A DNA stretch of 64,000 bases, from NCBI GenBank assembly GCA_947626265.1, contig CANQRM010000001.1:1-64000 (forward strand), read 5' to 3'. Below the pieces are notes generated by a model, which saw only the letters and a list, made by a program, of their open reading frames with translations, was not told the origin of the DNA and did no database searches. This DNA comes from an uncultured Oscillospiraceae bacterium (lineage in GTDB: Bacteria; Bacillota; Clostridia; Oscillospirales; Oscillospiraceae). Below, piece by piece: positions 24,515-51,245 of the stretch. Each line of letters starts with the position of its first letter. The first letter of the stretch is position 1. The position numbers and the translations under genes were made by a program.

Positions 24515-24712
24515 ATGGCAAACATCAATTATGGGGAAATCCCCGAAACATCCAGGCAGGACCTCCTGGCAATCCTTTACGCCATGACGGTCCATGACCT
24601 AAAAGACCCGGCTATCCGGGCTGACTGTGAGCGCTGGAAGAAAGAGCGGCGGGCCAGACTAGCCGCCGCTGGAAAGGAGGGTAAAGGTGGCAGCTCCCTT
24701 GCGATTGAGTGA
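24515..24712 (+). CDS. Early phage protein of unknown function
   Basis: 65 aa from the ATG at 24515 (TTG at 24503 also in frame). An N-terminal NYGEIPETSRQDLLAILYAMTV segment is helical, then a charged helix (ERWKKERRARLAAAGKEG). No domain is recognised. The next gene starts inside its end. Confidence 0.5.
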   Translation: MANINYGEIPETSRQDLLAILYAMTVHDLKDPAIRADCERWKKERRARLAAAGKEGKGGSSLAIE

Positions 24713-24954: not shown

Positions 24955-25398
24955 ATGTCCTACATAGCTTCATGGAAAACCGGCTTTGGAAGCCTATTCA
25001 GAGCGGATGCCCAGCTCGTGGCAAACGAGATCATGAGCATTGGAGATACCGCCACACCCGCGCAGATCGTTGATATGGCCCGTGACAGCAGCACAGAGCT
25101 TCATAAGTGCTTTGAGTGGAATGACACAGTAGCCGCCGAAAAGTACCGATTGGAGCAGGCGCGGCAGGTTGTCCGCATCCTAGTCATCAAACGCGAGGAC
25201 GGGCAAGAGGACCAGCCTGAGCGCCGGTTCTTCCATAAGAACGAATACAGCGAGGGATATAAAAGCCTGGAATTCATCGTCCGAAATGAAACCGAATACG
25301 AAAAGCTGTTGAAACAGGCCCTTTCGGAGCTTCACGCTTTCAAGGCCAAGTATCATGCACTTTCGGAGTTGGAGGAAATACTGGCTCTTATTGACTGA
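24955..25398 (+). CDS. Early phage protein of unknown function
   Basis: 147 aa with an AGGAGG 8 nt upstream. Acidic and helical, with a start MSYIASWKTGFGSLFRADAQ and a Leu-rich C-terminus (ALSELEEILALID). No domain is recognised. It is the last gene before the long-hairpin array and may be cotranscribed with it. Confidence 0.55.
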   Translation: MSYIASWKTGFGSLFRADAQLVANEIMSIGDTATPAQIVDMARDSSTELHKCFEWNDTVAAEKYRLEQARQVVRILVIKREDGQEDQPERRFFHKNEYSEGYKSLEFIVRNETEYEKLLKQALSELHAFKAKYHALSELEEILALID

Positions 25399-25408
25399 GC
25401 CTAATATA

Positions 25409-25536
25409 TGCAACAGGTGCTGCTGAAGGTTTATACCTTCAAAGCATTGATTAGAACAGGATCGTGCAAGAAAGGAACAAACAGAAAAAGACAAAATAAC
25501 ACATCATATTATAAGCCTTCAGCAGCACCTGTTGCA
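25409..25536 (+). ncRNA. Long-hairpin RNA unit 1
   Basis: A perfect 21-bp closing stem (25409-25429 with 25516-25536; 5' arm starts TGCAACAGGTG) encloses an 86-nt A-rich loop. The inner end of the 5' arm can instead pair with a near sequence: GAAGGT with ACCTTC (25425-25440). The 3' arm is followed by CACACCACAC. Function unknown. Confidence 0.65.
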
Positions 25537-25590
25537 CACACCACACTTCACTAGCAAAGAGAACATGACTTGACAGAACAGAACACTATA

Positions 25591-25711
25591 AATCAGCACC
25601 GGGAAGGGCTTGTTAGCCCAAGTATAACGAGTTACACGCAGGCAAAAAACAGAAGGAAACAGCAAGTTATAACAAAGAACAGTACACAACAAGCCTTTCC
25701 CCGTGCTGATT
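25591..25711 (+). ncRNA. Long-hairpin RNA unit 2
   Basis: A 24-bp closing stem (25591-25614 with 25688-25711; 5' arm starts AATCAGCACC) has one C-C mismatch and one G-U pair and encloses a 73-nt loop rich in AACAG. GGGCT can pair locally with AGCCC (25606-25619). Preceded by ACTATA, followed by TGCACACC, as in unit 1. Confidence 0.65.
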
Positions 25712-25784
25712 GCACACCGAGCAGACTATAAAAAAGCATAATTCAGGACAGCAGATTAACAGAACAATATAGGACACTATAAAT

Positions 25785-25912
25785 GACCGGGTATGGCAGA
25801 GGGCTTGAAATCCCTCGCAAATTATGTGATAGACGAGAATATTTCAATTTGCTTCACCAAAGGTCAGGACAAAACAGTATAGAACAGAACAAGCTCTCTG
25901 TCATGCCCGGTT
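25785..25912 (+). ncRNA. Long-hairpin RNA unit 3
   Basis: A 23-bp closing stem (25785-25807 with 25890-25912; 5' arm starts GACCGGGTATG) has four positions that differ from perfect DNA complementarity, and all four are G-U pairs as RNA. The loop is 82 nt. GAGGG pairs locally with CCCTC (25800-25815). A plausible promoter precedes it: TTAACA, 16 nt, TATAAA. Confidence 0.65.
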
Positions 25913-25938
25913 AAACATATTTTTAGGAGGAATAGAAC

Positions 25939-26586
25939 ATGAAAAAGGACAAGAACACCGTGGTTTTGGAGCCTATTAAAATCCAGACCGCAACTGTGAC
26001 CATCGATGGAGACACTGATCTTGTGTTGAATAAGATGAACGCCCGCGCCGAGCGCACCTTGACCGATGAACGCACCGGCGAGGGGAAAAAGGTCAAGCAG
26101 GTTCCGAATATCTGGGAAGACATCATCACCGCTATGCACTGGCGAGATGGTCTGCAGATGAAGGACAGTTACATCGAATCCACCGAGGAGCGGCTTGTGT
26201 CCATGCTCCAGAACAACGCCCCTTGCATCACGGCCTTTGGACTTGGCAAATCATTTGGACAGGCCGTGACGAGAAACGAAATCGATAAATACGCTACCAA
26301 ATTTGATAACGCAGTGAATGTGCTGTCCCACGGCGGGCTTATCCCCATTAAGTTCACCGAACACTGCGTTGATACCCGGCTTATGTCCCCGAAAAGAGGC
26401 GCCCCTGTGCTGGTGCATCTAAACCGCTTCGCGGGCTGGACAGCACAGTTCCAGATTCAGTACACGGAGCACGTTTACAGTCTGGAGGAGATTGTGAACA
26501 TCATCAACCTTGCAGGCTTCGGCTTGGGCATCGGCAGCGGGCGCACAAGCGGCTATGGCCGGTACCATGTGGCCGACGTGAAATGA
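25939..26586 (+). CDS. Phage RAMP-like protein of unknown function
   Basis: 215 aa, AGGAGG 9 nt before the ATG. Early part: VTIDGDTDLVLNKMNARAE. A central ITAFGLGKSFGQAVT sits where related phage proteins have a glycine-lysine motif. The C-terminus IINLAGFGLGIGSG then RTSGYGRYHV is a glycine-rich loop like that of RAMP (Cas7/Csm3-type) RNA-binding folds. Similar proteins with this ending are widespread in phages but uncharacterised. It lies between hairpin units 3 and 4, which makes an RNA-binding role attractive. The RAMP assignment is an inference from one motif. Confidence 0.45.
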   Translation: MKKDKNTVVLEPIKIQTATVTIDGDTDLVLNKMNARAERTLTDERTGEGKKVKQVPNIWEDIITAMHWRDGLQMKDSYIESTEERLVSMLQNNAPCITAFGLGKSFGQAVTRNEIDKYATKFDNAVNVLSHGGLIPIKFTEHCVDTRLMSPKRGAPVLVHLNRFAGWTAQFQIQYTEHVYSLEEIVNIINLAGFGLGIGSGRTSGYGRYHVADVK

Positions 26587-26617
26587 GGAAACAATTTGTC
26601 AGAGAAAACTACCCCAC

Positions 26618-26751
26618 CTATCCGCTCAACCGTGCCGGCCTCGATATACCCGGCCGATTACATCAGGACAACGGCCCCCTTCTGACTTGGCTGCTGACAT
26701 GATAAACCTCCTCATACCTTACTGCGGGCGCCGGCACCGTTGAGCGGATAG
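26618..26751 (+). ncRNA. Long-hairpin RNA unit 4
   Basis: A 22-bp closing stem (26618-26639 with 26730-26751; 5' arm starts CTATCCGCTCAAC) has a single C-C mismatch and encloses a 90-nt loop. The inner end of the 5' arm, GCCGG, can pair with a local CCGGC (26634-26654). It has the architecture of units 1-3 but a GC-richer loop, and it lies downstream of the RAMP-like gene. Confidence 0.6.
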
Positions 26752-28090: not shown

Positions 28091-28366
28091 ATGCCGAAAT
28101 TCATCTACACCTACGGTTTGGAAGGTCACCCCTTTGAGGGTGGCTGGACCGAGATCGAAGCGCCGGACCTAAAGAGCGCCAATGCCATCTTCCGGGCTTT
28201 TCACCCGGACAAGTACGAAGGGTTCCTCAACTGCTGTTCGGTCTATACGGAGGAAGAATTCAAGGCCACCAAAATGAGCGGACCCAACGGCAACCACCAT
28301 AAGCACTGCCAGGAGCGCTTCACCTTCACCCATGAAATCTATTCTGAAAAGGAGACAGACACATGA
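28091..28366 (+). CDS. Phage protein of unknown function
   Basis: 91 aa, AAAGGAG 6 nt upstream. Starts PKFIYTYGLEGHPFEGGWTEI and has FRAFHPDKYEGFLNCCSVYTE, a pattern seen in small phage proteins encoded before Sak4-type recombination genes. Its stop overlaps the next start. Confidence 0.55.
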   Translation: MPKFIYTYGLEGHPFEGGWTEIEAPDLKSANAIFRAFHPDKYEGFLNCCSVYTEEEFKATKMSGPNGNHHKHCQERFTFTHEIYSEKETDT

Positions 28367-29310
28367 TCGTACAGCCCGAAAAAATGAGCTTCGATAATAA
28401 GAAGTTTTCCATGATTCTCTACGGCCCCCCGGGCGTTGGCAAGACCACCCTGGCCCTGTCCGCCCCGAACCCTCTTATCATCGACTTCGACCGGGGCATG
28501 AGCCGCGTCAAGGCCCAGCACCGCAAGCCGGCCATTTTCTGCAACACCTATGAGGAGGTTATGAACGATCTCCGTTCCCCGGATATCAAGGACTTCGAGA
28601 CCATCATCATCGACACCGGCGGCTCTTTCGTGAGTTTCCTTAAGGACTGGGCATTTAGGACAAAGCCCGATGCCATCACGAAAAGCGGCCAGTTCAATTC
28701 GCTCAAGGGCTTTGGTCATGTCAAGAGCGAGTTTGAGAGTTTCACCAACTATGTGCGGGATACGCTGAACAAATACCTCATTTACATCTTCCACTCTGTG
28801 GAACAGACCGACAAGGACGGCAGCACCCAGCAGCGCCTCATGTGCGAGGGTGCGGCCAAGAATATCGTGTGGACCCCCTGTGACTTCGGCGCATATATGC
28901 AGATGATCGGAGAGGATAGGTTCGTCTGTTTCTCTCCTGAGCAGGAATATTTCGCCAAGGGATGCCACGGCATCACGGGAAAAATCCGTGTTCCCGCTCT
29001 GAGGACAGAGGATTCCAACGACTTCTTGACCAGACTCTTTGCCCAGGCAAAAGCGAATATCGCCGCCGAGGACGAGGCCTTTGCACCCATCCGCGAAAAG
29101 TATGAAAAGGCCATGGTCCGGGTCGCGGAGTTGGTCGAAGGTGTCCACGACCTTGTGTCTGCCGATGCCGCTCTGGCTGAGATCCCCAAGCTGGACCACG
29201 CGCTGACATCCAAGAAAGAGGCCTCCGCTATGCTCCGGGAAAAAGCTGCTTCCCTGGGCCTCAAATACAGCAAGGAGGCGGGGTGCTTCATCAACGTGGA
29301 GGCGACATGA
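28363..29310 (+). CDS. Sak4-like RecA-fold ATPase (AAA_24)
   Basis: 315 aa. Walker A GPPGVGKTT (21-29), Walker B TIIIDTGG near residue 85, and a downstream IYIFHSVEQTD strand. This is the phage AAA_24 family, of which Sak4 assists single-strand annealing and recombination. The C-terminal third is helical. Its neighbours (nuclease, HNH protein, SSB) make a recombination module. The gene ends in an ATGA overlap with the nuclease. Confidence 0.8.
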   Translation: MIVQPEKMSFDNKKFSMILYGPPGVGKTTLALSAPNPLIIDFDRGMSRVKAQHRKPAIFCNTYEEVMNDLRSPDIKDFETIIIDTGGSFVSFLKDWAFRTKPDAITKSGQFNSLKGFGHVKSEFESFTNYVRDTLNKYLIYIFHSVEQTDKDGSTQQRLMCEGAAKNIVWTPCDFGAYMQMIGEDRFVCFSPEQEYFAKGCHGITGKIRVPALRTEDSNDFLTRLFAQAKANIAAEDEAFAPIREKYEKAMVRVAELVEGVHDLVSADAALAEIPKLDHALTSKKEASAMLREKAASLGLKYSKEAGCFINVEAT

Positions 29311-32482: not shown

Positions 32483-32598
32483 TTTCTTTGAGCATCGTGC
32501 TTTCCATCGGCGGTTTCGTGGCCGACTACATATTCCCCGGGGTCCGCCCGGTGGAGCGGTTCATCCGCTCTCTACCTCTGGGGAGGGACGGGGAATGA
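32479..32598 (+). CDS. 39-aa hydrophobic phage peptide
   Basis: The ATG overlaps the previous stop; the peptide starts MISLSIVLSIGGFVADYIF and ends in a charged tail. One short membrane helix is possible. The tight ATGA overlaps on both sides support translation. Confidence 0.45.
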   Translation: MISLSIVLSIGGFVADYIFPGVRPVERFIRSLPLGRDGE

Positions 32599-32780
32599 GT
32601 GATGTGCCTGCGCTGCGTCGTTGCAAATGCGGCGAATATGCAGAGATGTGGTATATGCCTCTGACCGGGGCTTACAACGTCAGATGCAGAAAATGCCAGA
32701 ACAAGGGGCGGCCCCATCTTTCCGAGAAGATGGCGGCAGAAGCCTGGAACGATAAGGAGTGGAAGGGAGATCTGAAATGA
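32595..32780 (+). CDS. Lar-like zinc-ribbon protein
   Basis: 61 aa. Cysteines 10, 12, 31 and 34 with VRCRKCQNKG and the late AAEAWND match the Lar restriction-alleviation-like family, small phage zinc ribbons. Real anti-restriction activity is untested for most members. Confidence 0.65.
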   Translation: MSDVPALRRCKCGEYAEMWYMPLTGAYNVRCRKCQNKGRPHLSEKMAAEAWNDKEWKGDLK

Positions 32781-32980
32781 AAGTGCCGTATGGACCGCAC
32801 CAGAGAGCCAGGCGCCGGCGGCGGCGTTGCAAAGTGCTTGCGCTGTCCTTGGCACTTCTGGCTATGGTGATCACGACCTCCCCGGCGCTGACGAGGGACC
32901 CGCCGCCACCGCCTAAGGAGGATCTGTTGGGTCTATCCAGCGCCGGTGCCGGGACCTGGGGGTTCGAGAGCGACCGGTGA
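32777..32980 (+). CDS. Small membrane or exported phage protein
   Basis: 67 aa. An arginine-rich start (RARRRRRRCK), a hydrophobic helix (VLALSLALLAMVITT) and a Pro-rich tail. ATGA overlap with the preceding gene. Function unknown. Confidence 0.5.
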   Translation: MKVPYGPHQRARRRRRRCKVLALSLALLAMVITTSPALTRDPPPPPKEDLLGLSSAGAGTWGFESDR

Positions 32981-33540
32981 AGGCCGGTACCAGACCGGAC
33001 AGGCCATGGGATGAAGAGGCCTTCCGAATCCTCGCTGATGGCATCCGGGACGGGGACAGCTACGCGGCGATAGGACGCCGCCTGGGGAAGTCTGAAAAGG
33101 CCGTCCGGGGCAAGGTCTTTACGGTATATCTGACCGAGAACGCCGATAAGGTCCGTGAACTGATGGGTGATGGCAAATGGGGCAACGGTGCACCGGTGCC
33201 CACCGTGAAGCAGGGTATTGTTCTATCACGGCACGAAGCAACCACAAAGCGGAATCTGGCGGCTCTGGCCTTTGTGCTGAAGCAACGGGCCATATCTCTG
33301 GGCTGGGACCCGTACTGGCAGCGCAAGATGTGCCAGCACTGGGATGACATGGAGGGTTGCACCGCGGGCGGAGAAAACTGTGACATCTGCGTGGACTTCA
33401 AGAGGATGGAACCACAGTTCTGCTCCCGCTGCGGCCGGGACTTCTTTGAGAGAAAACAAAATCGGTTCTGCCAGGAGTGCCGGGAAGCACGGAAACGGCA
33501 GGCCCAGCGCCGATGGGCGCGGATGAACGACGCACGTTGA
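32977..33540 (+). CDS. Phage HTH and zinc-ribbon protein
   Basis: 187 aa from a GTG overlapping the previous stop. Residues 8-50 (WDEEAFRILADGIRDGDSYAAIGRRLGKSEKAVRGKV, split over three helices) resemble a Myb/GcrA-like DNA-binding unit. Cysteines in CQHWDDMEGC, CDIC and the final CSRCGRDFF/CQEC could bind one or two zinc ions. It may regulate transcription; the family is widespread in Clostridia phages. Confidence 0.6.
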   Translation: MKAGTRPDRPWDEEAFRILADGIRDGDSYAAIGRRLGKSEKAVRGKVFTVYLTENADKVRELMGDGKWGNGAPVPTVKQGIVLSRHEATTKRNLAALAFVLKQRAISLGWDPYWQRKMCQHWDDMEGCTAGGENCDICVDFKRMEPQFCSRCGRDFFERKQNRFCQECREARKRQAQRRWARMNDAR

Positions 33541-48146: not shown

Positions 48147-48925
48147 AACAGTACGTCGGGAGAAAGCAGTCCAGCAACAATGCCGACTGGCTGTATGCCG
48201 TGGAACACATCGAGGAGCTTATCTCTCCAGAGGAAGTGGAGATTTACGCGGCAAAGGCGGCTGAGCGTATCAGCCAGGCCTGCAGCGGGAAGAAAGTGGC
48301 ATATGCGTGGTCCGGCGGGAAAGATAGTATCGTCCTCGGTGACATTCTGGCAAAGCTGGGAATCACCGAGGGCTACTTCGCTTACTGCGACCTGGACTAC
48401 CCGGCCTTCATAAGCTGGGTGAAGGCCAACCGGCCGGCGGGCGTCACGATGATGCACACCGGGTACAACCTGGAATGGCTGGCCAAGCACCAGGAGCTTA
48501 TCTTTGCCACTGGGCACACTGGCCAGCGGTGGCACCAGATAAGCCAGAAGGGCCCGTTTACGGAGATGTTCTTCTCCCACGGGCTTGAACTTCTGCTCCT
48601 GGGGCACCGAGTCATCGACGGGAACGTCTGCGGCCCGGAGGGGTTCATCCGCAAGAAAACCGGTGAGGTCCGATATAACCCGCTCTATGACTGGCCGCAT
48701 GAGGCCATCCTGGGCTACATCCACTACCACGGCCTTTCGCTGCCTCCCTTCTACGGCTGGAAGGACGGCTATGTGCAGGGGACCCACGCATGGCCGGAGC
48801 GGGACCATTGCAAAACGCTCCACCAGGGCTACCAGGAAGTGTACGACATCGACAGCTCGATCATCATCGAGGCGGCGCGGTATATTCCCTCTGCGCTCGA
48901 CTTCCTCCGGGAGGTGGGCGTATGA
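48143..48925 (+). CDS. PAPS reductase-family protein (IbrA/DndC-like), copy 1
   Basis: 260 aa, ATGA overlap. AYAWSGGKDSIVLGD is the PP-loop of the PAPS reductase/DndC family; it later has LLLGHRVIDGN and EVRYNPLYDW. Such enzymes activate or transfer sulfur groups by adenylation; DndC does this in DNA phosphorothioation. Here it is coupled with a ParB-domain protein. Substrate unknown. Confidence 0.75.
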   Translation: MKQYVGRKQSSNNADWLYAVEHIEELISPEEVEIYAAKAAERISQACSGKKVAYAWSGGKDSIVLGDILAKLGITEGYFAYCDLDYPAFISWVKANRPAGVTMMHTGYNLEWLAKHQELIFATGHTGQRWHQISQKGPFTEMFFSHGLELLLLGHRVIDGNVCGPEGFIRKKTGEVRYNPLYDWPHEAILGYIHYHGLSLPPFYGWKDGYVQGTHAWPERDHCKTLHQGYQEVYDIDSSIIIEAARYIPSALDFLREVGV

Positions 48926-49578
48926 ATATCGTCACCAAGCGCCTGGACGAGCTGGTGCGCCCGGATAAGAACGTCAGAATCCATACCACAAAGCAGATTG
49001 ACGAGTATGTGCGTTCGCTGAAGATGTTTGACCAGATACGGCCCCTCATCGTTGACGAGAACGGCGTGATCCTGGTCGGCAACGGTATGTATGAGGCGCT
49101 GGTCCGCATGGGCCGGGAAACCTGCGAATGCGAGGTAAAAGAGGGTCTTACGGAGGTCCAGAAGAAAAAGCTCATGCTGGCCGACAATAAGATCTTCGAG
49201 CTGGGCATGACAGATTCCCAGGCCTTTGAGAGCATCTTAAAGGACATCGGCACGGACTTCGATATACCGGGCTACGATTCATCCATGCTAGAAATGATCA
49301 CGATGTCGTTCTCCGGCGTGGATGACTTCATAAGCAACTACGGCACATTCGGAGCCGAAGATGTAGAGCGTATCAACGGAAATACGGCTGAAACACACGT
49401 TGAGGGCGTTGCAACGGGGTTCCCTGGGCAGGCAGACCCCAACCCCATATCGAACCTAGCCCCGGCGACCCTTACGAATCCAACCCCAACAAACGGCCAA
49501 AACGGGGCCCCGGTAGAGCGGTATATAATCTGCCCCAAGTGCGGAGAGCGCATTCCCATACGCGGGGAGGTGGTCTGA
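48922..49578 (+). CDS. ParB-domain protein with zinc ribbon (IbrB-like), copy 1
   Basis: 218 aa, ATGA overlap. Residues 1-130 are a ParB/sulfiredoxin-type domain (RPDKNVRIHTTKQIDEYV, VILVGNGMYEALVRMG, KLMLADNKIFEL). A Pro/Thr-rich linker and a zinc ribbon (YIICPKCGERIPI) follow. IbrB-like ParB proteins are usual partners of PAPS-reductase proteins; the fold can bind nucleotides and DNA. Confidence 0.75.
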   Translation: MNIVTKRLDELVRPDKNVRIHTTKQIDEYVRSLKMFDQIRPLIVDENGVILVGNGMYEALVRMGRETCECEVKEGLTEVQKKKLMLADNKIFELGMTDSQAFESILKDIGTDFDIPGYDSSMLEMITMSFSGVDDFISNYGTFGAEDVERINGNTAETHVEGVATGFPGQADPNPISNLAPATLTNPTPTNGQNGAPVERYIICPKCGERIPIRGEVV

Positions 49579-49579
49579 T

Positions 49580-50725
49580 ATGCCGTATAAGACCCTCCAA
49601 AGCACCATCAACGTGCTTGACGCTGCCAAAATCCGCATAAAGAACGTCTTTGCCAACGGGTGCAAGGTATATCTCTCCTTTTCCTCCGGCAAGGACTCTT
49701 TGGTGCTGTCGAGCATCACCTATGACCTGATACTGGCCGGAGCGATAGACGCGAAGCAGCTGACGGTCATCTTCATCGACGAGGAAGGGATTTACCCCTC
49801 CATGGAGGAGGCGGCCTACCGGTGGCGGCAGAAATTCTTGTCCGTTGGCGCCAAATTCATCTGGTTCTGTTTGCCGTTCAAACAGGTCAGCGTGATAGAC
49901 CATCTTTCTGCATCGGAGAGCTGGATAACCTGGGAGCCCGGAAAAGAAGACGTGTGGATTCGGCAGCCGCCGCCATTTGCGGTGATGCAGAGCCCTATCA
50001 TGGAATATCCCGGGGAGATGAACTACCAGACCTTCTGCAAGGCGGCATTCATCGACGGAATACAGATGATAGGCCTCCGCACGGTCGAATCCCTCACAAG
50101 GCTCCGGGCGGTGTCAATCCTGGATATGACCAGGATAAAACCGGGTGGGGCCTTCTACCCGATCTATGACTGGAAGGATACCGATGTCTGGCTCTACATC
50201 AAAGAGCGGAACCTGGAATTCCCGGAAATCTATATGCGGCTCTATGAGGCCGGCGTGAACAGACGGAACCTCCGGCTGTGCGCCTTCTTCGGTGACAACG
50301 GTACACAAGGCTTGCGGTGGATCGCCGAGACAGACCCGGACCTCTGGGCCCGCATCGAGAAGCGGGAGCCGAATGCCTACCTGGTGCTGCTGTACTGGGA
50401 CAGCGAGATGTTCCGCAGATCCACCCAGAAGCGCCGGGAACTGGAACAGGGGGAGCCGGAGAAGGATTACCGGGCTCTCTGTGAAGATTTGCTTTTCCTC
50501 CACCCGGAGAAATACACCATCGCCGCCGACACGAAAAAGCACCTCAAAAGCTGGAAACAGCTGTTCATCAAGAGCTACGACATAGCCACGAACAGCCATT
50601 ACAAGCGTATGTATGAGGGGCTTCTGTACGGCGACCCCAAAATGCGGATTCTCCGAATCCTCTGGAACTCCATCTATGGGGAATTTGCAGAGCGGGCGAG
50701 AGAGGAGCGTGCGTCACATGAGTGA
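49580..50725 (+). CDS. PAPS reductase-family protein (IbrA/DUF3440-like), copy 2
   Basis: 381 aa, starting 1 nt after the previous stop. PP-loop SFSSGKDSLVL (about 33-43), VIFIDEEGIYPS, WEPGKEDVWIRQPP, and FYPIYDWKDTDVWLYI fit IbrA. It differs clearly from copy 1 (longer, extra C-terminal helical domain), so the pair is not a recent duplication. Confidence 0.8.
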   Translation: MPYKTLQSTINVLDAAKIRIKNVFANGCKVYLSFSSGKDSLVLSSITYDLILAGAIDAKQLTVIFIDEEGIYPSMEEAAYRWRQKFLSVGAKFIWFCLPFKQVSVIDHLSASESWITWEPGKEDVWIRQPPPFAVMQSPIMEYPGEMNYQTFCKAAFIDGIQMIGLRTVESLTRLRAVSILDMTRIKPGGAFYPIYDWKDTDVWLYIKERNLEFPEIYMRLYEAGVNRRNLRLCAFFGDNGTQGLRWIAETDPDLWARIEKREPNAYLVLLYWDSEMFRRSTQKRRELEQGEPEKDYRALCEDLLFLHPEKYTIAADTKKHLKSWKQLFIKSYDIATNSHYKRMYEGLLYGDPKMRILRILWNSIYGEFAERAREERASHE

Positions 50726-51245
50726 AATGGACCTCTTCTCTCCGCTGCGGTCCCTTCAGTGGGTAGACCGCACCATGCTCCGGGCCAACGACTACAACCC
50801 CAACAAGGTCAGTGAGGACAATCTACGTCTGCTGACCCAATCCATACTGACCAACGGCTGGACGCTCCCCATCGTGGTCCGCCCGGATTATACGATCATC
50901 GACGGATTCCACCGGTGGACCGTGAGCGGGCGGGAGCCTCTGCTTTCCAAGCTGGGGGGCAAGGTCCCGGTGGTCATCGTAGACCACGCCGGCGACGAGA
51001 GCGCCGATGTGTACGGGACCATCACCCACAACAGGGCCCGGGGCACCCATCTGCTGGAGCCCATGAAAGCCATTGTGAAAAAGCTGTTGGACGAAGGGAA
51101 GACAGTGCAGGAGATAGGTAAGCAGCTGGGCATGAGGCCCGAAGAAGTGTTTCGGCTGAGCGGATTCACCCGCGAGGAATTCCTAGCTCTCATGACGGAA
51201 GATGTTGGTGGTTATAGCAACGCCGTCATTTACAAGAAGATTTGA
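50718..51245 (+). CDS. ParB-domain protein (IbrB-like), copy 2
   Basis: 175 aa, start overlapping the previous gene. Domain marks: LRANDYNPNKVSEDNLRLL, IDGFHRWTVS, ITHNRARGTHLLEPM. It ends with a helix-turn-helix-like VQEIGKQLGMRPEEVFRL. Together with the preceding gene it forms a second IbrA/IbrB pair. Confidence 0.8.
   Translation: MSEMDLFSPLRSLQWVDRTMLRANDYNPNKVSEDNLRLLTQSILTNGWTLPIVVRPDYTIIDGFHRWTVSGREPLLSKLGGKVPVVIVDHAGDESADVYGTITHNRARGTHLLEPMKAIVKKLLDEGKTVQEIGKQLGMRPEEVFRLSGFTREEFLALMTEDVGGYSNAVIYKKI

Follow-up and report, generated by a model that had tools for sequence, protein, structure and literature searches.

A probable VIPR-like system with hairpin-framed NN-ACA guides in a prophage of an uncultured Oscillospiraceae bacterium

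VIPR (Viral Interference Programmable Repeat) combines a phage RAMP protein with guide RNAs built of GGY/NN pentamers and represses genes of competing phages (PMC13142463). A fixed triplet alternates with a dinucleotide NN, and the successive NNs read DNA as NNxNNx, one base being skipped (PMC13142463). Seven types are described, with the pentamer GGY/NN "or a related consensus" (PMC13142463, preprint of April-June 2026). The window analysed here, a prophage-bearing stretch of 64,000 nucleotides, holds a locus that resembles the type II VIPR of phage SUSP1 in its small phage RAMP protein with a glycine loop, its tandem pentanucleotide guides of a fixed triplet plus NN read with a 1-base skip, and its one linked partner gene. 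As in VIPR, the targets lie in other phages, some of them in other VIPR loci, and the matched guides comprise about 10-15 repeats here and 9-16 repeats in VIPR (PMC13142463). In contrast to SUSP1, the triplet is ACA (with ATA/AAA variants) rather than GGY; the guides occupy the loops of 22-28-bp hairpins and the linkers, a single weak hairpin (score 14.1) having been found by the scan at the SUSP1 locus; and the partner protein is without a fold match, the protein similarity to SUSP1 Vipr itself being weak (E 0.033). The phiSUSP1 locus served as a positive control: around its vipr gene (28474-29079 of the L170 sequence) GGT is spaced by 5, 10, 15 and 20 nt 22, 21, 19 and 17 times, respectively.

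Class 1 CRISPR-Cas systems, with their Csm3/Cas7 RAMPs, share the RAMP fold and presumably the coating of a guide RNA. In contrast, the present locus is without direct repeats, has a 5-nt instead of a 6-nt period and is read with gaps. No CRISPR direct repeats were found in the window, which contains only short families of 2-3 copies and in which the arms of the hairpin units differ, and no cas genes were found among the scanned neighbours (10 + 4 proteins), the only Cas6 match (E 0.051) falling on the RAMP protein itself. Judged from the comparisons below, the locus very probably encodes a VIPR-like RNA-guided DNA-binding system carried by a prophage, with ACA instead of GGY as its triplet and with hairpin-framed units; it is filed under VIPR provisionally because the triplet differs. 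The literature search found only PMC13142463 to bear on this array. The statement of an earlier note on this DNA, which knew of no described system with this layout, is thus superseded in part, a phage RAMP with pentanucleotide guides being described. The hairpin-framed array and the ACA code go beyond the main text of that preprint, where the words hairpin, inverted and stem are absent. Its "staggered arrays with overlapping vrRNAs" and "related consensus" (PMC13142463, figs S17 and S18) could be this arrangement.

The hairpin array and its neighbouring genes

Units 1-3 lie on the + strand between a 147-aa gene (24955-25398) and a 215-aa gene (25939-26586), and unit 4 lies beyond the latter on the same strand. 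Unit 1 (25409-25536) closes a loop of 74 nt with a 27-bp stem (25409-25435/25510-25536) and carries a guide tract of 14 pentamers from 25439. Unit 2 (25591-25711) has a 24-bp stem (25591-25614/25688-25711) and a loop of 73 nt with a weaker guide tract from 25617, and unit 3 (25784-25913) combines a 24-bp stem (25784-25807/25890-25913) with a loop of 82 nt and a guide tract of 15 pentamers from 25812. Unit 4 (26618-26751) displays a 22-bp stem (26618-26639/26730-26751) and a 90-nt loop without the NN-ACA signature. The four stem-loops had been placed at these positions in the earlier note, with which stems and loops agree, unit 3 being one base longer on each side; the C-C mismatches described for units 2 and 4 are seen in the sequence. 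RNA folding z-scores of units 1-4 are -9.7, -6.5, -6.1 and -7.0, an equally good fold arising in 0 of 200 shuffles. Linker 1, between units 1 and 2 (25541-25590, + strand), is a guide of 10 pentamers with the NNs CC CT CT AA GA TG TG GA GA CT, and linker 2, between units 2 and 3 (25712-25783, + strand), has a pentamer phase not above chance. The block 25399-25938 has only short open reading frames, one of 53 aa on the + strand and, on the - strand, one of 57 aa besides parts of frames of 104, 91 and 68 aa; none is taken for a gene. Rfam gave nothing at the gathering threshold for this block, MIR2646 (E 0.0051), far below its own cut-off, being rejected as a generic hairpin; the scan for promoters and terminators returned 2 and 3 sites, as in shuffles, and INPHARED held no record matching the DNA of the block at E 1e-5.

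The vipr-like gene (25939-26586, + strand) is predicted from its model to encode a small phage-encoded RAMP-fold protein of 215 aa with a C-terminal glycine loop, GFGLGIGSGRTSGYGRY. The AlphaFold2 model has a pLDDT of 89.8 and a pTM of 0.83, residues 201-203 of the glycine loop falling below 50. Foldseek returned 54 chains at E 0.001 or better, starting from E 2e-6, with TM-scores of about 0.35-0.52; among solved structures the closest are RAMP subunits from Cmr, Csm and type VII effectors, and this Csm3/Cas7-like fold bears out the earlier suspicion of a RAMP-like phage gene. The profile of 56 homologues found a single match among PDB sequences, SUSP1 Vipr (36pp), which is the weak one at E 0.033 and covers the glycine-loop region. 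The Pfam family RAMPs matched the window protein at E 0.0099, below cut-off, and, at E 0.01 or better, 11 of the 56 members. INPHARED held no match to the protein at E 1e-5.

The 147-aa gene (24955-25398, + strand; phrog_15946, without known function) has homologues in 66 of 68 vipr loci, and in the 60 with a recorded distance these lie 0.8-2.4 kb upstream of vipr; in L142 it lies downstream. Among the eight window neighbours tested in the 68 loci (the count leaves out L120, L125, L129, L131, L145 and L147) it is the only one kept in nearly all, the others being found in 25 (SSB), 2 (Sak4), 2 (the gene at 29283), 1 (HNHc_6) and 0 loci (the gene at 24687, DUF3846 and DUF551). The AlphaFold2 model of its product is mostly helical (pLDDT 87.6, pTM 0.55); no PDB fold matched at E 0.001, no DNA-binding fold was recognised, Pfam gave no family common to two of 57 partner-protein members, and the conserved gene shows no tie to vap1-6. 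It is probably a VIPR accessory (vap-like) gene, a reading drawn from its conserved position beside vipr. The window also carries its own Sak4-like gene near vipr (28363-29310). Elsewhere in the window, two genes that we take to be of PAPS-reductase type alternate, between 48143 and 50725, with presumably ParB-like genes (48790-49578 and 50613-51245), and what we assume to be two large serine-recombinase genes lie in opposite directions upstream of the phage genes (18978-22693).

Relatives of the 215-aa protein were collected as 7 viral loci, 55 viral loci with alignment and 10 genome loci, the last including MAGs named Lachnospiraceae, Oscillospiraceae, Blautia and Ruminococcus, and as a further set of 65 viral loci taken with longer flanking DNA, of which 10 lay on contigs new to the collection. 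The main hairpin scan, which scores only Watson-Crick pairs and so treats G-U and A-C alike, covered 58 loci, the window included and eight near-copies omitted. The repeat records L001 and L003-L007 of contigs already included, and the near-copies L022, L028, L030, L035, L047, L048, L061 and L072, were dropped from the hairpin, ACA-spacing, pentamer-composition, local-hairpin and stem-letter counts and from the first-round guides; the loop, pentamer, local-hairpin and stem-letter counts take in only hairpins above the score cut-off and near the gene. Upstream of the gene 170 hairpins were found in 68,907 bases, against 1 in 344,535 bases of dinucleotide shuffles and 1 in 107,298 bases elsewhere in the same loci. 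Recurrence beside homologues of the gene had been set beforehand as a test, and a long hairpin lies upstream in 55 of 58 loci (at least two in 51) and at least two accompany each of the 10 new homologues, four of which are only 31-38% identical. The three loci without an upstream hairpin are L031, where a G-U-tolerant scan finds two, L043, which has two downstream, and L071, which has none. Among the non-Watson-Crick pairs of the stems, G-U/U-G (432) outnumber A-C/C-A (94), beside 160 other mismatches; thus the + strand RNA is what is kept. A locus holds 1 to 10 units, the arms differ within one array, and in several loci units also lie downstream of the gene. In the second units of L023 and L026 (also L032) one long arm start, GAACGTGGATTC, is common to different phages, beside unlike neighbouring units, so units may be exchanged or lost singly.

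The NN-ACA pentamers and their probable reading with one skipped base

The loops 1 and 3 and linker 1 of the window display a 5-nt periodic NN-ACA signature, weak in loop 2, that the earlier note had overlooked. With weights derived from loops that included the window's own, the pentamer score was reached by 0 of 2000 shuffles for each of loop 1, loop 3 and linker 1, by 37 of 2000 for loop 2 and by 799 of 2000 for linker 2. As 1713 of 2000 shuffles score as high as the loop of unit 4, this unit is a true hairpin without a guide signature, either a degenerate guide unit or something else, and not the equal member of the array that it had first been taken for. Some other loci have units downstream like unit 4, but with ACA-rich loops.

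The same period runs through the homologous loci. Pairs of ACA in 203 loops are spaced by 5, 10, 15, 20, 25 and 30 nt 365, 334, 318, 282, 243 and 195 times, whereas spacings of 4 and 6 occur 11 times each and shuffled loops give 15-30 at multiples of 5; in 82 linkers the counts from 5 to 30 by fives are 163, 132, 101, 109, 102 and 82. Within the RAMP gene the 5-nt ACA periodicity was not found. The pentamer composition is N N A (68%) C (55%) A (83%), with ATA/AAA variants, and the triplet is thus ACA and not GGY.

The NNs of the ACA tracts were searched against the collected sequences with skips of 0 to 4 bases and as scrambled guides, matches inside or beside guide tracts being masked in all scans. 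In the first round (428 guide windows of 9 pentamers, 46 loci), skip 1 gave 10 matches at 18/18 and 37 at 17, against no match at 18 and a single one at 17 for the other skips together. The top matches came mostly from two guides, L038/L135 and L021/L119 (each pair one contig under two names), against the glycine-loop codons of the vipr genes of other phages. With one guide window per region in the second round (n=145 guides), skip 1 brought 7 guides to at least 18/20 and 3 to 19/20, whereas skips 0, 2 and 4 brought 0, 0 and 1 to at least 18/20 and none to 19/20, and four scrambles 0, 2, 0 and 2 to at least 18/20 and none to 19/20; skip 3 gave 4 and 3. The last round covered 2.88 Mb and 144 guide regions, contained loci and near-duplicates having been dropped. 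The regions with a best score of 18/19/20 numbered 13/4/5 for skip 1, against 3/0/0, 4/1/0 and 8/1/0 for skips 0, 2 and 4 and 3/0/1, 7/0/0 and 10/0/0 for three scrambles. The excess of skip 1 over other skips and scrambles is therefore clear at 19-20 (9 regions, against 0, 1 and 1 for skips 0, 2 and 4 and 1, 0 and 0 for the scrambles) and small at 18. Since L119 and L120 are near-copies, seven distinct guides underlie the nine best skip-1 regions.

Skip 3 returned 10/3/2 in the last round. All five of its best matches have long hairpins of a different vipr locus no more than 120 nt away, which holds for 0 of 10 at score 18; these best matches are thus look-alike arrays, read as themselves. With this skip, guide tracts of different phages share dinucleotides at 20/20 (L161 at 9920 with L141 at 9486; L140 at 6742 with L165 at 9373), and it seems from these tracts that different phages carry the same guide. 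The second batch of targets was chosen because guides had already matched RecT and Sak4 and is thus biased with respect to those guides; the gain of L136 (from 19 to 20) and that of the L119/L120 linker guides (from 18 to 19) are not independent. The codon-phase test was not decisive, the skipped base falling at codon position 3 in 29 of 62 skip-1 regions at 17/20 or better and in 30 of 57, 19 of 52 and 15 of 50 for scrambles.

Targets of the guides

Several matches involve vipr itself. The guide of L135 matches the glycine-loop codons of the L122 vipr gene over 15 successive dinucleotides (30/30 letters, in frame), and a guide of L119 matches those of L117 and L118 at 20/20. Both also match their own vipr gene at 17/20, so self-avoidance is weak. 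A guide of L142 matches the partner gene (phrog_15946) of L122 at 19/20, and another the vipr gene of L143 at 18/20. RecT genes are matched by L136 at 19/20 in L127 and L110 (both assigned by Pfam RecT) and at 20/20 in L199, and Sak4-type genes by a linker guide of L119 at 18/20 in L153 (AAA_24/Sak4) and at 19/20 in L248. A guide of the phage contig L133 matches 12 dinucleotides (24/24) in a 459-aa frame of L174, located at a portal match in a prophage on contig 27 of the window's own genome. For the matches to vipr, RecT, Sak4, the partner gene and portal named above, guide and coding strand run in the same sense, and the skipped base falls on the wobble position. L107 also reaches 19/20, against L100; in the longest frame at this site the skipped base does not fall on the wobble position. 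Among the matched guides, those of L133, L136 and L119 and the second of L142 lie in loops, whereas that of L107, the second of L119, the first of L142 and window linker 1 lie in linkers; the best guide, that of L135, lies in no hairpin found by the scan, the nearest unit being about 70 nt downstream. These targets sit in what are presumably competing mobile elements.

In the window, linker 1 matches the Sak4-like gene of L269, L286, L287, L289, L293 and L299 at 18/20 with a 1-base skip and in frame, 9 of 10 dinucleotides being perfect, at the peptide PLLKEWCD-L. With equal base odds the chance expectation at 18/20 is about 0.009 for one guide window and about 0.16 over the 17 tried, so that this match is weak alone; it gains weight because the Sak4 loci were chosen for the L119 guide, which matches the same codons in the same register. 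By its translation, the window's own Sak4-like gene is without the PLLKEWCD-L peptide. Loops 1-3 gave no target above chance in 2.88 Mb, and linker 2 likewise none above chance; RecT was not found in the window's genome.

Proposed mechanism and alternative readings

The array RNA would be transcribed in the sense of the vipr gene, as the G-U asymmetry of the stems suggests. Vipr would coat the single-stranded NN-ACA tracts in the loops and in some linkers, holding ACA and presenting NN to the DNA, and the NNs would together spell the gapped target NNxNNxNNx, x being the wobble base of the coding strand in the best of the observed matches. The 22-28-bp stems would frame each guide and would be the sites at which the precursor is cut to release individual guides, host RNase III being the simplest candidate enzyme; the arms, or the small local hairpin where 5' arm and loop meet, may serve as guide ends. 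Both are candidates for a counterpart of the structured 3' tail of VIPR guide RNAs. By analogy with the published system, bound Vipr would repress genes of rival phages (Vipr, the accessory gene, RecT, Sak4 and portal), the 147-aa upstream gene probably supplying an accessory factor. Loops and linkers would both be guides, because matched guides are found in both. The hairpins thus appear to be the frame, with the target information in the tracts between the stems, and not the element that is bound or cut as such, the role first proposed for them. Whether these loci form a separate VIPR branch in phage contigs and genomes of gut Clostridia is an even question; such a branch would have its own ACA/NN code and a double array of loop and linker guides, in which each long stem would join the ends of two successive guides, spacing and releasing both.

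That the array is instead a regulatory leader, in which the vipr mRNA is attenuated or autoregulated through tandem and alternative local hairpins, its 5' leader being bound by Vipr itself, is improbable. In favour of it, 55 of 58 loci have the array upstream of vipr and in line with it, a second pairing partner is open to most 5' arms, and two guides match their own vipr at 17/20, but units are also found downstream of the gene in several loci, their number varies from 1 to 10, and the better matches are in other phages. Autoregulation as an extra beside the guide function is compatible with this evidence.

It is very unlikely that function resides in the hairpins as such, the RAMP protein binding them as dsRNA-like or structural RNAs (for instance as a scaffold or a decoy for host CRISPR) and the A-rich loops being mere spacers. 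This idea draws on stems in nearly every locus and on their regularities, since the aligned stems have preferred letters about 10-12 bp apart (G-Y at positions 8-9, where 94% have G opposite the Y, and G at 18-20), and a small local hairpin where 5' arm and loop meet (e.g. GGGC-UUGUUA-GCCC) occurs in 83% of 200 units against 22% of permuted pairs. At the same cut-off the local hairpin at the border of 3' arm and linker is weaker (38% against 16%). The arms were found through their pairing, so their complementarity is not independent evidence. Against this reading, the loops hold the 5-nt phase over 30 nt, the phase also runs through linkers outside the stems, and the gapped matches to phage genes are near-perfect. 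The arms as guides were considered and put aside: by eye, first-unit arms look orthologous between phages and only covary, and the pentamers explain the targets. Chance or composition, that is A-rich low-complexity DNA or inverted repeats such as MITEs, can be practically dismissed: the loops are indeed 46% A, but shuffles yield a single hairpin in 344.5 kb where the upstream DNA of the loci has 170 in 68.9 kb, which refutes it; the stems carry a G-U bias, the 5-nt phase is not lost and the arms differ within one array.

The guide reading thus adds sequence-only support for the gapped 1-base-skip code of one preprint in a distant phage group with another triplet, and suggests that the reading rule may stay while the triplet changes. 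The natural targets (Vipr, partner, RecT, Sak4 and portal) make phage-phage conflict in gut Clostridia testable.

The contigs of L165, L166 and L169, of jumbo-phage size (208-213 kb), carry distant homologues with hairpin arrays and fewer consecutive ACA pentamers (7, 5 and 5 of 10, respectively). Hypothetical proteins of the Gordonia phages UmaThurman (32765-33316) and Pipp (32510-33040) are about 26% identical to the L165 RAMP protein and are possible unnoticed Vipr proteins in named phages. L073 (G375:C14:56911-57486), from the order of the window's genome, is a stronger relative of phrog_4652 (E 2.8e-47); in its neighbourhood GGC (7 of 10) and GAC (6 of 10) recur at a 5-nt period and there is a single short-looped hairpin, of score 14.2, and it is probably a VIPR with a GGY-like code.
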